In this document: one piece after another, positions 9,754-37,587 of the stretch
Position numbering within the stretch: position 1 is the stretch's first letter
Layout of the letters: the number at the start of each line of letters is the position of its first letter
Assembly: GCA_012960845.1 (NCBI GenBank)
Contig: DUAN01000003.1
Coordinates: 6,154-49,812, forward strand
DNA length: 43,659 nt
Direction of reading: 5' to 3'
Origin: Planctomycetota bacterium
GTDB taxonomy: Bacteria > Planctomycetota > UBA8108 > UBA1146
Notes under the pieces: generated by a model
Databases searched by the model: none
Told to the model about the DNA's origin: nothing
The model's input: the letters and a program-made list of their open reading frames with translations, nothing else
Translations under genes and position numbers: made by a program

Positions 9754-10487
9754 CCGGAGACGGCTCAGCGACTCTCTTTCATCGCGAGGTTGGCGAGCAT
9801 TACCACTCCCTCAGTGGAGCACACCTCGAGGCGAGGTACCGGTTCATCGAGCCGTGTCGGGTGGCCCGGACTGCGCTCGTTCGAGGTCAGGTTCGGATTC
9901 TGGACATCGGTTTTGGCCTCGGCACCAATCTCGGCTGGGCGATCCACGACATCCAGCGGAAGGCACCCGGGGCGGCCATCGAGATCGTATCGCTGGAGCG
10001 GGATCTGCTGGATGAGGAGCAGTTGAAGCCGTTCTTCAGGGCTTTGCCCGAGGCACGGCTATCGGTGATGTTGCACCACCTGGTCGATCAGCGTCGGTGG
10101 ATCGAACCCGGGTTACGGTTGACCCTGATGGTCGGTGAGGCGGAGCAGCTGATCGACACGGTGGAAGGTCGATTCGATGCTGTATTCCTCGATCCCTTCT
10201 CGCCAAAACGCAATCCTGGGCCCTGGAGAGCCGGTTTCCTGCGTGCGATCCGAAATCGGATGGTCGAGGGTGGTATACTCTCTACGTACAGTTCGGCCCG
10301 GAGGATTCGACTCTCTTTACTCAGATCGGGGTGGCAAATTGGCCTCGGTCCGGCGGTTGGAATGAAGTCCTCGGGTACCGTGGCGAGTGCTGGTCTGGTG
10401 CAGCCGCCGTTGCCTCCTCTCGATGAGAAGTTGCAACGAAAATTGGCGCGTCAGGTCAACTCAGGACAGGAAGAAGATCAGCGATGA
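9732..10487 (+). CDS. MnmC/MnmD-like tRNA methyltransferase (DUF752-type); GTG start overlapping the end of cinA
   Basis: In-frame GTG 9732; GDGSATLFHREVGEHYHSLSGAHLEARYRFIEP, ILDIGFGLGTNLGWAIHDIQRKA, DAVFLDPFSPKRNPGPW; no FAD oxidoreductase domain. Confidence 0.82.
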   Translation: MAPPGILTGDGSATLFHREVGEHYHSLSGAHLEARYRFIEPCRVARTALVRGQVRILDIGFGLGTNLGWAIHDIQRKAPGAAIEIVSLERDLLDEEQLKPFFRALPEARLSVMLHHLVDQRRWIEPGLRLTLMVGEAEQLIDTVEGRFDAVFLDPFSPKRNPGPWRAGFLRAIRNRMVEGGILSTYSSARRIRLSLLRSGWQIGLGPAVGMKSSGTVASAGLVQPPLPPLDEKLQRKLARQVNSGQEEDQR

Positions 10488-11329
10488 GTGAGAAACGAGA
10501 CGATGTCGGTCACCGCAGCATGATACTACTGCTGCTGCTGGGAGCGCTGCTGCCCACCCCCCTGAAGGGGGATACGGTGCTGCTGGTCAATGGCAGTCGT
10601 ATCGATGGACTGGTTCTCGATCAGGACCAGAAGCGTCTGGTGCTGCAGATCGGTGGATTGGGGACGATGCAGATCCCCAACTCGACGGTCCGCTCCATCG
10701 AGAAAAATCGCCGGATCGGACCTTCTGTTGGCGATTCCACGGGTTCTGATCGCCAGCAGCCAGCTCCACCGGTTACGCCAGTGGTTCCCCCGCAGAAGAA
10801 GACTCGGTCGCCACTACTGCTGCCCAGGGCGGATTCCAGGGTAAAATTGCCAGCGGAACTCCCCGAGTTGTCGGGCCGTAAGATTCAACAGGTGAAGGAA
10901 TGGGTGGGGGAACTGCAGCGCCAACGGGCCCGAAATCGTTCTCGAGCCGAACAACAGCTGGCTACGGTGGGCCCCGCTGCGATTCCCTTTGTGATCCCCG
11001 TGGCCCGCTCCTCCTTCGATCTGGCGAGGATTTCGGCGCTGAGGATTTTGCTCAAAACTCCTCATTTCAGGAGTGTAGATGTGGCCCTGGAAGGACTCTC
11101 TGCAGACAATCGGTGGGTTCGTAAACTATCATGGCAGTTGATCGTGAACATCAGCGGAATCTCCGGTGAGTATTCCTGGGATCGGCAGAAGCTGTCAGCA
11201 AAAAGGGCACAACAAAGCCGACGCTGGCACCTATGGGTCCAGCAACAGCGACGTCTGTACGAGAAGCAGCGGATGTGGAATCAAGATCAGTACAAGTTGC
11301 GCGGTGAGTCAACACACTCCGGCCGATAA
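10484..11329 (+). CDS. Secreted protein of unknown function with signal peptide and small beta-barrel-like N-terminal motif
   Basis: Signal-like MILLLLLGALLPTPLKG then DTVLLVNGSRIDGLVLDQDQKRLVLQIGGLGTMQIPNSTVRSIEK; 4-nt overlap with previous CDS. Confidence 0.7.
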   Translation: MSEKRDDVGHRSMILLLLLGALLPTPLKGDTVLLVNGSRIDGLVLDQDQKRLVLQIGGLGTMQIPNSTVRSIEKNRRIGPSVGDSTGSDRQQPAPPVTPVVPPQKKTRSPLLLPRADSRVKLPAELPELSGRKIQQVKEWVGELQRQRARNRSRAEQQLATVGPAAIPFVIPVARSSFDLARISALRILLKTPHFRSVDVALEGLSADNRWVRKLSWQLIVNISGISGEYSWDRQKLSAKRAQQSRRWHLWVQQQRRLYEKQRMWNQDQYKLRGESTHSGR

Positions 11330-11416
11330 CTGCCTTATCAAGCGTGCTACTTTGTTGAATTGACGACTCTCTGGTAACGCTTCTCTTCCCCAGCAATTTC
11401 AGATCACATCGATGCG

Positions 11417-11769
11417 TCACCCTTGCGAGGTGAGTCTGGCTTTGCTACGGTCGGGCGCTGCCGTGGAGGTGCGAACACGATGAACTTTCGTTGCGATCGG
11501 GAGTTCCTTTCCCCTCCGGCAGATTCGTTCTTGAAGTGACTCCGATCCTGTCATCTGGCAGGAATAAAACGATGCATGATCGACTGGTAAAGTCGATGGG
11601 AGAGATTCGCCCAGGTGCGAATCGACTCCGGGTCCGCATCCACTGAAAGTCTGATGTCTTCTGACGTCGGACAATGGGTAGGAGTTCTTCAGGCAAATCT
11701 GCAGGTCCGTTTTGATCATCTGTGATGACGGAGCGGTCAGATTAGATCTTGCATCGGAGACATCCGATG
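11417..11769 (+). ncRNA. Candidate structured RNA (hairpin-dense intergenic region upstream of dnaA); strand uncertain
   Basis: Consecutive perfect or near-perfect hairpins at 11495-11547, 11547-11562, 11579-11597, 11604-11623, 11649-11672 (nested in ~11625-11685), 11716-11728, 11752-11769. Confidence 0.4.
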
Positions 11770-11981
11770 GTTCGAGAAGAGTGTGTTTGAGTTTGTCGTA
11801 TCGGTGCCACGTGGTGAGGTGAAATGAATTTTTCTGTGGTTCGATTCGACGTCTTCAATGTGTTCCATTTCGTTGAGTGACCGCTGACATGCGGGATCAC
11901 CAGTGAGATATGCAGATGCGTGGATGATTCGAATTCTTGAATGGGGGGGGGAATAGGTTGGGCGCTCAGGAAATTACTTCC

Positions 11982-13418
11982 ATGAACGCAGATCTGCACT
12001 GGGATCATCTCCGTGCGGCCATCACCCCCATCATCGGGGATGCCCAGATGGGAAGATGGTTTCGACGGGTCACACCCGTGGTGGTGGATGCAAGTGTGCT
12101 CCAACTACATCTGGAGAGCCGTTTCTCGCTCGAGAAAATCGCCAACAATTTCAAAGATGTATTGCAGTCTGAAGCCCGAAAATTGGGCCTCGACTCGGTT
12201 CAATTGCGACTCGCTAGCGCCCCTCCTGCGGAGCTGCCGACGGAGGTGCGCCAGCTCCCGTTGGGCGGTCCAGTCGGCCGAGGCGGTCCAGTCGGGCCAG
12301 AGGACCCACCCTTGACGGTAGCAGGCGCGATGGCGCCCGCTCCGGCGACCGATCCGGGGAGCGCAGTGGCGAGGCCCCTGGACGGGGTGCTGACCCGCCG
12401 ACCCGATGGACTGCGCCGCGATCATACGCTGGATCGATTTGTCGTGGGTCAGGCCAATCGACTGGCTTATTCAGCGGCTCTGGAAGTGCTACGGACTCCA
12501 GGGATCTCCTTCAATCCACTGTTCCTCCATGGCGGATGTGGGTTGGGAAAGACCCACCTTCTGCAAGCGATCACCCGGCAGTTCTTCATCCAGGGAGAGC
12601 GACGGATGAGATATCTTCCCGCCGAACATTTCGTACATCAGTTCATTCGAGCTCTGCAGCAAAAAACTCTCCATCAGTTCAGGAAGAGTTTTCGGGAATT
12701 GAGGGTTCTCGCCATCGATGACATCCAGGCCTTCGCAGGCAAGCCGAGTAGTCAGCAGGAACTGCTGGAAACGGTGGATGCGATCGCTCAACGGGGGGGA
12801 CAGGTATTGTTGGCTTGTGATGTTCCTCCTCGGAAATTGGATCGTCTTCATCGTCAGTTGAAGAATCGATTTTCCGCAGGCTTGGTGGTGTTGGTCGACC
12901 CTCCTGACCAGCAGACAAGAATTTCGATTCTGAGGCAGGAAGTCGTGCGCGGTGGAGTTCATGTTCCCGAGGAAGTGATCCACCACATCGCTGGGGAAGT
13001 GAGGAACAGCAGCCGTGAGTTGTTGGGTGCCCTGGTGCGAGTAGTCGCAGAGTGTGAACTGTCCAACTCGGCGGTCTCCCTCCCGCAAGCGAGAGCGATT
13101 CTAGATCCGATCGCAATCACACTTCAGAGAAGGATTACCATCGACATCATCATCGATCGAATCGGCCGGCGCTGGGGCATTCCTCCCGAAGAGATCGTCT
13201 CGAGATCGAAGACCCGCAATACCTCGATGGCGAGAAATGTTGCGACCTATCTCGCGAGGATATTGACGGATCATTCGCTGGCCGAAATTGGCGAGAAGAT
13301 GGGGGGGCGATCCCATTCGACCGTCAGTAGTTCGTTCCGAAAGATCCAGCAGGCGATCTCTACCGATCTGGAACTCCGTGCCGAGATCGATAAAACGATG
13401 AAGGACCTTCGTGGTTGA
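11982..13418 (+). CDS. dnaA: Chromosomal replication initiator DnaA
   Basis: LHGGCGLGKTHLLQAI Walker A, VLAIDDIQAF Walker B, LKNRFSAGLVV, C-terminal HTH MARNVATYLARILTDHSLAEIGEKMGGRSHSTV. Confidence 0.95.
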   Translation: MNADLHWDHLRAAITPIIGDAQMGRWFRRVTPVVVDASVLQLHLESRFSLEKIANNFKDVLQSEARKLGLDSVQLRLASAPPAELPTEVRQLPLGGPVGRGGPVGPEDPPLTVAGAMAPAPATDPGSAVARPLDGVLTRRPDGLRRDHTLDRFVVGQANRLAYSAALEVLRTPGISFNPLFLHGGCGLGKTHLLQAITRQFFIQGERRMRYLPAEHFVHQFIRALQQKTLHQFRKSFRELRVLAIDDIQAFAGKPSSQQELLETVDAIAQRGGQVLLACDVPPRKLDRLHRQLKNRFSAGLVVLVDPPDQQTRISILRQEVVRGGVHVPEEVIHHIAGEVRNSSRELLGALVRVVAECELSNSAVSLPQARAILDPIAITLQRRITIDIIIDRIGRRWGIPPEEIVSRSKTRNTSMARNVATYLARILTDHSLAEIGEKMGGRSHSTVSSSFRKIQQAISTDLELRAEIDKTMKDLRG

Positions 13419-24135: not shown

Positions 24136-25245
24136 ATGTTCCACAAGAGTTGGGTTCGAAATAGCGTGGCCTTCGCTGCAGTGTTGATTCTCATTGCCAT
24201 CGGTACTTTTTTCTATCTGAATGCGGTGTCCGTCGCAAATCACAGGAGGATTGAAGACTATCGACAGCAAGTCGGTGCGATTTCTGCTGCGGATCTGTGG
24301 GCGAAATCGATCGAGCAACGAGATCCTCGACTCTTCGAATTACACGATAGTGGATTTCCTGGCGGCGTTCAGTTTCTCGAGGACACGAAACAGGCTCGCC
24401 GTACTGAACAGGTGGAAGGAGATGCCATCTCCATCACCACGACTCAACTGGAGGAGTTACGCGCTATTCTTCGGAATTCACCGGGAGCGCAGGTACCTGA
24501 AATCGTCGATTTTAACACCTTGCTTCCTGCCAATTTCAAGCAGCTTCGATCGCTCATCTTCGCATGTTGCCAGTCGCAGGAAAAATCGACAGGCACGGAG
24601 ACCGGTACCGCGACCGGCGCCGCGATGATAGAGCAGCAGGAGCGTTGGCTGATCGGAGTCGAACTGGCTGAATCACTCACTGCTGGCGGGTTTCTCGTTG
24701 GCGAATTGAAACGGTTCGCTCTGCTGAAGACGTTGCTGGAGAGAGGGTTGGAATTGATCCAGAGTGATGATCTGGATTTTCTCGAGAATGGTGCAGCGAC
24801 CCTTGCGCGGGTAGCTTCGCCCGAGGATGGAATCGCCAGAGCACTTCAGATCGAGACCCTGGTAGTGATGGATCTGGAAGAGTGGCAAGCATCACCCTTC
24901 ACCAGTTCTCTGGACCTTCGGTGGTATCTCGATCAACAGATTCCTCTATCCCTCGATCCGTCCAGAGAAACTCTCCAGGCGCTTTCAGTCGAGGAGCCTC
25001 CTGTATACGCTCTGTTGAGTAGTGCTGTACTTCCGCTGTTTGATTCCATCATCGAGAAGTCCAACCAAATGGGGGCCCGACTTCTGGCAGTTCGCTGTGC
25101 ATTCGAGGCGACTGCTGCGCAGCTCAGGGGTGTCGAATGGACTCCACCCACTGGTGTGGAACTGATCCCGTCCACCGCGGGTGGCGCAGCCAGGATTCAT
25201 GTCACCGGAAGTTCAGTGGCAACCGACGTCTACCTGCCAAAGTGA
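24136..25245 (+). CDS. Membrane-anchored protein of unknown function, paralog A of tandem pair
   Basis: N-terminal TM VAFAAVLILIAIGTFFYLNAV; N- and C-termini near-identical to 25411..26508. Confidence 0.75.
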   Translation: MFHKSWVRNSVAFAAVLILIAIGTFFYLNAVSVANHRRIEDYRQQVGAISAADLWAKSIEQRDPRLFELHDSGFPGGVQFLEDTKQARRTEQVEGDAISITTTQLEELRAILRNSPGAQVPEIVDFNTLLPANFKQLRSLIFACCQSQEKSTGTETGTATGAAMIEQQERWLIGVELAESLTAGGFLVGELKRFALLKTLLERGLELIQSDDLDFLENGAATLARVASPEDGIARALQIETLVVMDLEEWQASPFTSSLDLRWYLDQQIPLSLDPSRETLQALSVEEPPVYALLSSAVLPLFDSIIEKSNQMGARLLAVRCAFEATAAQLRGVEWTPPTGVELIPSTAGGAARIHVTGSSVATDVYLPK

Positions 25246-25361: not shown

Positions 25362-25410
25362 TCAGTCATGGGTCGTAGCCATGACTCGGTACCGAGAGAG
25401 AAGCCTCGTC

Positions 25411-26508
25411 ATGTTCCACAAGAGTTGGGTTCGAAATAGCGTGGCCTTCGCAGCAGTGTTGATTCTCATTGCCATCGGTACTCTTCTCTATCTGAATGCG
25501 GTGTCCGTCGCAAATCACAGGAGGATTGAAGACTATCGACAGCAAGTCGGTGCGATTTCTGCTGCGGATCTGTGGGCGAAATCGATCGAGCAACGAGATC
25601 CAAAACTCTTCGAATCACATGATGTATCTTTCATCAGCGTTCAGTTTATCCAGGACCAAGTGAAAGAAGATGCCTTCTCCATCACCACGGCTCAACTGGA
25701 GGAGTTACGCGCTATTCTTCGGAAATCTCCGGGAGTGCAGGTACCTGAAATCTTCGATTTTAACACCTTGCGTTTTGCCAATCTCCAGCAGCTTCGATCC
25801 ATCATCATCGCCTGTTGTCAGTCGCAGGAAAAATCGACAGGTACGGAGACAGGCACCGAGATCGGCACCGCGACCGGCACCGCGATGAAAGAGCAGCAGG
25901 AGCGTTGGTTGATCGGAGTCGAACTGGCAGAATCACTCACTGCTGGCGGGCTCATCCGAGATGAACAGATGCGGCTTAGTCTGTTGAAATCTTTGCTGGA
26001 GCGAGGGCTGGATTTGATCGAGAGTGATGATCCAGATTTTCTCGAGAATGGTGCAGCGATCCTCGCTCAGGTATCTTCGCCCGAGGATGAAATCACCAGA
26101 GTACTTCAGATCGAGGCCCTGATGGCGATGGAACTGGAAGAGTGGCAATCGGCGTCCCTCCTCACCAGTTCCCTGGAGCTTCGGTGGTATCTCGATAACC
26201 AGATTCCTCTATCCCTCGATCCGTCTCGTGAAACTCTCCAGGCACTTTCGGTCCACGACCCTCCTCTGTATCTGCTGATGGGAGGTTTTGTACATCCGGT
26301 GTATGTTTATCTCGTCGAGGAGAGCAACCAATTGGGGGCCAGGCTTCGCGCAGTTCGCTGTGCATTCGAGGCGACTGCTGCGCAACTCAGGGGTGTCGAA
26401 TGGACTCCACCCACTGGTGTGGAGCTGCTCCCGTCCACCGCGGGTGGCGCAGCCAGGATTCATGTCATCGGAAGTTCAGGGCTAACCGACGTCGACCTGC
26501 CAAGGTGA
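25411..26508 (+). CDS. Membrane-anchored protein of unknown function, paralog B of tandem pair
   Basis: MFHKSWVRNSVAFAAVLILIAIGTLLYLNAVSVANHRRIEDYRQQVGAISAADLWAKSIEQRDP shared with paralog A; shared C-terminal block. Confidence 0.75.
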   Translation: MFHKSWVRNSVAFAAVLILIAIGTLLYLNAVSVANHRRIEDYRQQVGAISAADLWAKSIEQRDPKLFESHDVSFISVQFIQDQVKEDAFSITTAQLEELRAILRKSPGVQVPEIFDFNTLRFANLQQLRSIIIACCQSQEKSTGTETGTEIGTATGTAMKEQQERWLIGVELAESLTAGGLIRDEQMRLSLLKSLLERGLDLIESDDPDFLENGAAILAQVSSPEDEITRVLQIEALMAMELEEWQSASLLTSSLELRWYLDNQIPLSLDPSRETLQALSVHDPPLYLLMGGFVHPVYVYLVEESNQLGARLRAVRCAFEATAAQLRGVEWTPPTGVELLPSTAGGAARIHVIGSSGLTDVDLPR

Positions 26509-26570
26509 TGGGATGAGAGCGTTGTGAAGAGAGCACGAGATGTTCGAATCGCCATCGCAAGATTGAAGTG

Positions 26571-26952
26571 GTGAGCGGGCCGTAAGCCGAGTCCTGTTCA
26601 TCGACGCAAGGTCGATGTGCGATCATTCCTCTAGGCTGACCGTTGCCAGACAGCTCAAACGACCTACCCGGGCATTCTCCCGACATTGCCGGGAACGGAG
26701 CGGACCACTCCTTTGCCTCTGTTTGGTCTTTCTCCGGGAGGGGTTTACCCTGCCAGGGACGTCACCGCCCCCGCGGTGAGCTCTTACCTCACCATTTCAC
26801 CCTTACCGAGGATCCGAAGATCTACGGCGGTATATTTTCTGTGGCACTTTCCCTGGGATCGCTCCCGGTGGGCGTTACCCACCACCCTGTCCTGCGGAGC
26901 CCGGACTTTCCTCGACATGGAAATCCATGCCGCGACCGCTACACCCGCTCAC
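26571..26952 (-). ncRNA. rnpB: RNase P RNA (bacterial class A type)
   Basis: Reverse complement has GAGGAAAGTCCGGGCTCC, CACAGAAAATATACCGCC, TAAGGGTGAAATGGTGAGGTAAGAGCTCACC, ACAGGACTCGGCTTACGGCCCGCTCAC; ends GTGAGCGGG/CCCGCTCAC pair as P1. Confidence 0.95.
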
Positions 26953-37325: not shown

Positions 37326-37487
37326 ACCTTGTTCTTTGACTATACATTGAGTTCTTTGACGAGACATGGAATGGAAGGACGCCCTCCAGTGGGTGTTCTT
37401 GCCGTTGGATGCAACAGGGTTGGTCTCCACCGCTGCAGTCGAGGTATTCCTGCGGTGGAGCTGGCTCGATGAAGTGATGAATGAATT

Positions 37488-37577
37488 CCGGGGTCCGGGC
37501 GACTGGCGGCCCGTGACCTGGTCAGGCCTTGACGGGAGCAGCCAACTCGGCCCCCGTTGGTGTGCTTCGGGCTCCGG
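37488..37577 (+). ncRNA. ffs: Signal recognition particle RNA, small (4.5S-like) type
   Basis: Helix 8 core GACCTGGTCAGGCCTTGACGGGAGCAGCC with UGAC (URRC-class) apical loop; ends CCGGGGTCCG / CGGGCTCCGG pair over 10 positions; followed by TCTTTTTCTT; lies upstream of dnaX. Confidence 0.85.
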
Positions 37578-37587
37578 TCTTTTTCTT
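37578..37587 (+). terminator. T-rich tract after the closing SRP RNA helix
   Basis: CTCCGG-TCTTTTTCTT. Confidence 0.55.

Follow-up and report, generated by a model that had tools for sequence, protein, structure and literature searches.

Immediately upstream of dnaA2, the recG-linked second dnaA copy of an uncultured Planctomycetota bacterium, lies an RNA secondary structure that is conserved on one strand, follows a promoter-like site and has no other good promoter between that site and the gene. We favour, with moderate confidence, the reading of this stretch as a structured 5' leader of dnaA2, ~500 nt long, that tunes DnaA2 synthesis after transcription initiation. That the stretch is transcribed, that transcripts read on into dnaA2 and that the RNA has a regulatory role are inferences from the sequence. 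Transcription would start near 11457 (coordinates are those of the window, the whole 43,659-nt stretch of DNA analysed) from a conserved extended -10 promoter, and the product would be a three-domain RNA of ~335 nt (5' hairpin domain, multibranch core and 3' domain). The transcript would continue through an unconserved spacer into dnaA2, and the leader would act in cis to set DnaA2 synthesis once transcription has started, by refolding that a ligand, a protein or the translation of a short ORF upstream may trigger. The features of the region are:

11423-11451, + strand: predicted sigma-70-type promoter, conserved across dnaA2 loci
11457-11522, + strand: 5' domain with closing helix CTGCC..GGAGG/CCTCC..GGCAG, from predicted folds
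11480-11539, + strand: possible leader-peptide ORF MNFRCDREFLSPPADSFLK, an open frame of 19 codons behind GGAGG
11533-11691, + strand: multibranch core (model R1) with six helices, from covariation and a column-shuffled alignment z of -6.07
11533-11543/11681-11690, + strand: helix P1 of model R1
11546-11552/11557-11563, + strand: helix P2 of model R1
11571-11575/11636-11640, + strand: helix P3 of model R1
11579-11585/11591-11597, + strand: helix P4 of model R1
11599-11610/11617-11629, + strand: helix P5 of model R1
11649-11658/11663-11672, + strand: helix P6 of model R1
11604-11640, + strand: CCAGGT hairpin loop and invariant strand GGGTCCGCATC, from conserved columns
11689-11791, + strand: 3' domain of the predicted fold, closed by UCAGGCA/UGUUUGA (11689-11695/11784-11790)
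11792-11942, + strand: unconserved spacer from the RNA to the dnaA2 ribosome-binding site
11958-13418, + strand: dnaA2, the second, recG-linked DnaA copy (Pfam Bac_DnaA, Bac_DnaA_C and DnaA_N)

A conserved fold upstream of dnaA2

Two dnaA genes occur in most genomes of the class. One copy is followed by dnaN (Pfam DNA_pol3_beta), while the dnaA of the window has recG downstream and cinA, a methyltransferase gene and a HEAT-like gene upstream, a neighbourhood that is in part shared with other families. The dnaN-linked and recG-linked DnaA copies are ~35% identical (window; L028-L041). The HEAT-like protein gene (10484-11329), named by eye and without a Pfam match, is kept upstream of dnaA2 across families. 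Ortholog alignment favours TTG 11958 over the ATG at 11982 given in the earlier note, and dnaA2 thus probably starts at this TTG, behind a Shine-Dalgarno G-run (11943-11951). Elsewhere, the window holds a class A RNase P RNA (26568-26951), a small SRP RNA (37486-37582) and two closely similar tandem genes (24136-25245 and 25381-26508; 369 and 375 aa) that are apparently a recent duplication.

The gap before dnaA had been described as a run of stems forming a candidate undescribed structured RNA. Every stem listed in that description can be read in the sequence, and those at 11546-11563, 11579-11597, 11604-11623, 11649-11672 and 11752-11769 are backed by comparative data. Two further proposals fail: the helix GATCGGGAGT/ACTCCGATC is broken in several orthologs, and the nest ACTCC (11625)..GGAGT (11685) is rejected because GGAGT pairs instead with GACTCC at 11538-11543. 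The folding comparison with shuffled controls suggested at the same time comes out clearly for structure. The folding energy of the + strand of 11417-11780 (364 nt) is -148.2 kcal/mol, where dinucleotide shuffles give -127.4 +/- 5.5 (z -3.76; 0/100 shuffles as low), and the - strand is much weaker (z -0.58). Folds of 240 nt beginning at the predicted start have z of -4.7, -5.4, -5.1, -4.3, -3.5 and -0.9 in the six orthologs; the five species of the window genus span -3.5 to -5.4, and the value of -0.9 belongs to the species of the sister genus g3. A column-shuffle test on the alignment of transcript nt 59-204 gives z -6.07 on the + strand and -2.48 on the - strand. Paired cells contain 39 G-U against 5 A-C combinations; the conserved entity is therefore the + strand RNA, and no other strand explains this count.

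Covariation within the core was assessed on an alignment of six orthologous sequences (A2), with shuffle controls that leave relatedness in place; as four of these sequences are closely related, independent events are few. Standard pairs occupy 95.1% of pair cells, compared with a mean of 90.6% in shuffles and 31-47% when the structure is slid. The covariation score reaches 0.257 (0.167 in shuffles), and two-sided changes occur at 11 pairs, compared with a shuffled mean of 4.7 and 0/500 shuffles as high. The covariation that the earlier note proposed to look for among orthologs is thus present. For example, P5 GATTCGC/GCGAATC is replaced in L015 by GATCCGC/GCGGATC and in L016 by GGATCGC/GCGGTTC, and P6 and P2 likewise show parallel changes on both strands of the helix. 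The CCAGGT hairpin loop reads CAAGGT in L015. GCATC (11636-11640) can pair with GATGC (11571, P3) or with GGTGC, in the loop region of P5, and these two alternative pairings are a possible switch, a lead with no output tied to it. Together, the folding energy, the covariation, the asymmetry between strands and the negative Rfam search support the description as an undescribed structured RNA.

Sequence identity between the window and L015 outlines the island. It is 0.28-0.55 at 11329-11407, 0.72-0.95 over 11408-11667, ~0.55 up to 11747 and 0.75-0.88 up to ~11800; immediately 3' of the 3' domain it drops to 0.30-0.42, and past ~11800 it stays at 0.30-0.62 until the dnaA ribosome-binding site. 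The limits first proposed, 11417-11769, were nearly right, the conserved island being wider (~11408-11800). Its sequence suggests a layout of promoter, ~335 nt three-domain RNA (11457-11791), variable spacer and dnaA2. The closing helix of the 5' domain starts right at the predicted transcription start, 11457, and encloses an inner hairpin, GAACTTTCG/CGGGAGTTC; covariation in this domain is below that of the core (3 two-sided pairs; 13/500 shuffles as high). The 3' domain includes the hairpin CATCGGA-GACA-TCCGATG (11752-11769).

The covariance model R1 finds a single match per genome, at the dnaA2 leader alone, in six genomes: five species of the window genus (g1) and one of the sister genus (g3). 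A search of 29 genomes of the class and of the other long leaders gave no match elsewhere, so the RNA body of g1 and g3 cannot be recognised in genera g4 and g5 or in families f4, f5 and f6. The g5 alignment shows no significant consensus fold, its sequences being too divergent or poorly aligned.

Predicted promoter and putative leaders across families

The predicted promoter comprises TTGCGA (11423-11428), a 17-nt spacer and an extended -10, TGC-TACGGT (-10 hexamer 11446-11451), with a G+C-rich discriminator, CGGGCGC, just 3' of the -10 and the predicted RNA start ~six bases on, at 11457. The site is present in 15/15 dnaA2 loci of the window's family (including g5 and both g4 genomes) and in 8/8 recG-linked dnaA loci of families f4, f5 and f6 with enough upstream sequence. 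In all 23 loci it lies directly 5' of dnaA2 on the same strand, with no recognised gene in between. With its G+C-rich discriminator it resembles the tRNA-Arg promoter of the same window. A further match to the promoter pattern (G024:C70:15679) was dropped, as it has no adjoining dnaA, and at dnaA loci of other classes, which lack the cinA/HEAT/recG linkage, promoters are merely scattered.

Fifteen loci were scored up to dnaA2 with a promoter matrix built leaving out the group under test. The far promoter scores 10.6-23.7 bits (16.6 bits in L015), and no separate site above 6.5 bits falls between it and dnaA2; in L012 the scanned stretch started immediately 3' of the -35, and the identical hexamers in L015 stand in for this locus. 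In family f3, which has cinA and the HEAT-like gene upstream, one strong promoter (24-25 bits) lies ~78 nt before dnaA2, with another open frame occupying the space upstream of it, so that the promoter is naturally dnaA2's own. With the sole good promoter ~0.4-1.9 kb upstream of dnaA2 in four families of the class and this close position in f3, the RNA is most simply a long dnaA2 5' leader. The same promoter style occurs ~75 nt before dnaN-linked dnaA copies in f5, and promoter style alone is thus no proof of descent. We further note that in g4 a secreted-looking 255-aa protein without a Pfam family is encoded in the stretch from the HEAT-like gene to the dnaA2 promoter, and that the f3 open frame at this place is similar by eye (L068 2011-2775, L133 4418-5246 and L069).

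The distance from predicted start to dnaA start is ~0.4-0.75 kb in g1, g3 and g5, ~0.9-1.3 kb in g4, ~0.63-0.95 kb in f5 and f6, and, for the two f4 genomes, ~0.9-1 kb and 1.86 kb. In f5 (L136, L139, L140 and L142), ~0.8-0.95 kb of non-coding sequence is conserved through to the dnaA2 start, and leader segments have a strong consensus fold (alignment z -7.5 and -5.2). Excess folding is patchy in the families other than that of the window. The features common to the families are the promoter and the place, not the RNA sequence. As separate observations, f5 leaders carry motifs such as CGGGTGGGAGAACTGGTATCGA, and in G018 (L125 2305-4163) several 200-nt windows of the ~1.86 kb between promoter and dnaA2 fold strongly (z to -7.7 on the + strand and -9.8 on the - strand).

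Alternative explanations and known RNAs

The earlier note had left a choice between a multi-stem non-coding RNA, a dnaA leader and DNA-level structure; the leader fits best and DNA-level structure is disfavoured. Several observations stand against a leader all the same. In the window genus the 150 nt nearest dnaA2 lack conservation, which would also fit a separate RNA gene ending near 11791, the fold of g1 and g3 was detected in no other genus, and the leader shows no terminator or element sequestering the ribosome site that would account for a regulatory switch. A possible but less favoured explanation is accordingly an independent ~335 nt structured ncRNA gene, or an RNA cut from the dnaA2 leader, acting in trans. 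Its three domains are compact and closed, at the predicted 5' end and again near 11791, conservation falls sharply past that point, the strong promoter with its G+C-rich discriminator is like that of the window's tRNA-Arg, and in a family without detected 6S RNA an unknown housekeeping RNA is conceivable. This explanation has to face the 23 loci without a recognised gene between RNA and dnaA2, a dnaA2 left without a second promoter, and the f3 promoter directly before dnaA2. Moreover, the spacer (11792-11942) contains neither a terminator-like nor a good promoter-like site; the missing terminator is weak evidence, because the RNase P gene of the same window is likewise without an obvious T-run. 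A broader version, which we regard as rather unlikely, has large multi-domain RNAs (~0.3-1.9 kb) that differ in sequence by family and occupy the same place, acting independently, either in trans or within RNA-protein particles. In one class of Planctomycetota they would couple the second DnaA, in its expression or its activity, to the state of the cell.

A leader-peptide attenuator, in which translation of 11480-11539 would control folding of P1 and the core and hence dnaA2 expression, appears improbable. The frame lies behind GGAGG and is open in four same-genus species, and its stop, TGA, sits in the base of P1; against this, an open frame of 20 codons is often expected by chance, its substitutions are mostly non-synonymous, it differs in L016 and L017, and no terminator was found. 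The ORF is not statistically significant and is at most a possible lead. We give very little credence to an element that acts as DNA, for instance an origin of replication or a region bound by DnaA. The stretch does adjoin a dnaA gene, but the window leader has no DnaA box (<=1 mismatch), no leader examined has an exact one, there is no skew change at the site and thus no origin signature of box cluster plus skew change, the wobble pairs are strand-asymmetric, and a dnaN-linked copy lies elsewhere. Least credible of all are chance hairpins, which the fold z-scores and covariation already contradict, and a protein-coding gene, be it hidden or decayed. Some short ORFs do run across the stretch (e.g. 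MHDRLVKSMGEIRPGANRLRVRIH), but indels are not in threes and in-frame stops occur in L014 and L016, and protein coding was rejected.

Rfam 15 gave no match at gathering or E-value thresholds for the window region and the orthologous loci, an outcome consistent with the undescribed RNA that the earlier note had suspected. 6S RNA has the shape of a rod with one central bubble. The dnaA2 leader is like it in having a stable-RNA-type promoter and differs in its multibranch core and in the absence of a match to RF00013, a model that finds 6S RNA in 0/16 genomes of the window's family and in 5/14 controls. Published work, too, did not find 6S RNA in the Planctomycetes examined (PMC5673643). Models of tmRNA, RNase P and SRP RNA do not match at the leader, and all three match elsewhere in the genome. 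OLE, GOLLD and ROOL are large structured bacterial RNAs that are long, multi-domain and lineage-restricted. The dnaA2 leader shares these traits and is strongly structured, but it is without an Rfam family match and is linked to dnaA2.

The nearest known kind, likened by description, is the dnaA 5' UTR of Caulobacter crescentus, a structured, covariation-supported leader of 155 nt (PMC8443254). The dnaA2 leader is ~500 nt (to ~1.9 kb in related families), belongs to another phylum and precedes a second, recG-linked dnaA copy. The Caulobacter leader was first reported as required for nutritional control (PMC4489657) and was later shown to limit translation, with the nutritional response mapping to the coding N-terminus (PMC8443254). 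This remapping to the coding sequence calls for caution in functional claims on the dnaA2 leader. We found no paper on a dnaA leader in Planctomycetota.

Implications for DnaA control

Control of the replication initiator is largely unknown outside model phyla, and these Planctomycetota have two dnaA genes. Four families keep a long leader at dnaA2 despite turnover of its sequence, with strong structure in at least two of the four. Model R1 is a structure model absent from Rfam, and the region offers a concrete, testable candidate RNA element for post-transcriptional control of DnaA. The dnaA2 leader of these uncultured Planctomycetota is a previously uncatalogued folded RNA, probably the beginning of the dnaA2 mRNA and a control on the amount of this DnaA.
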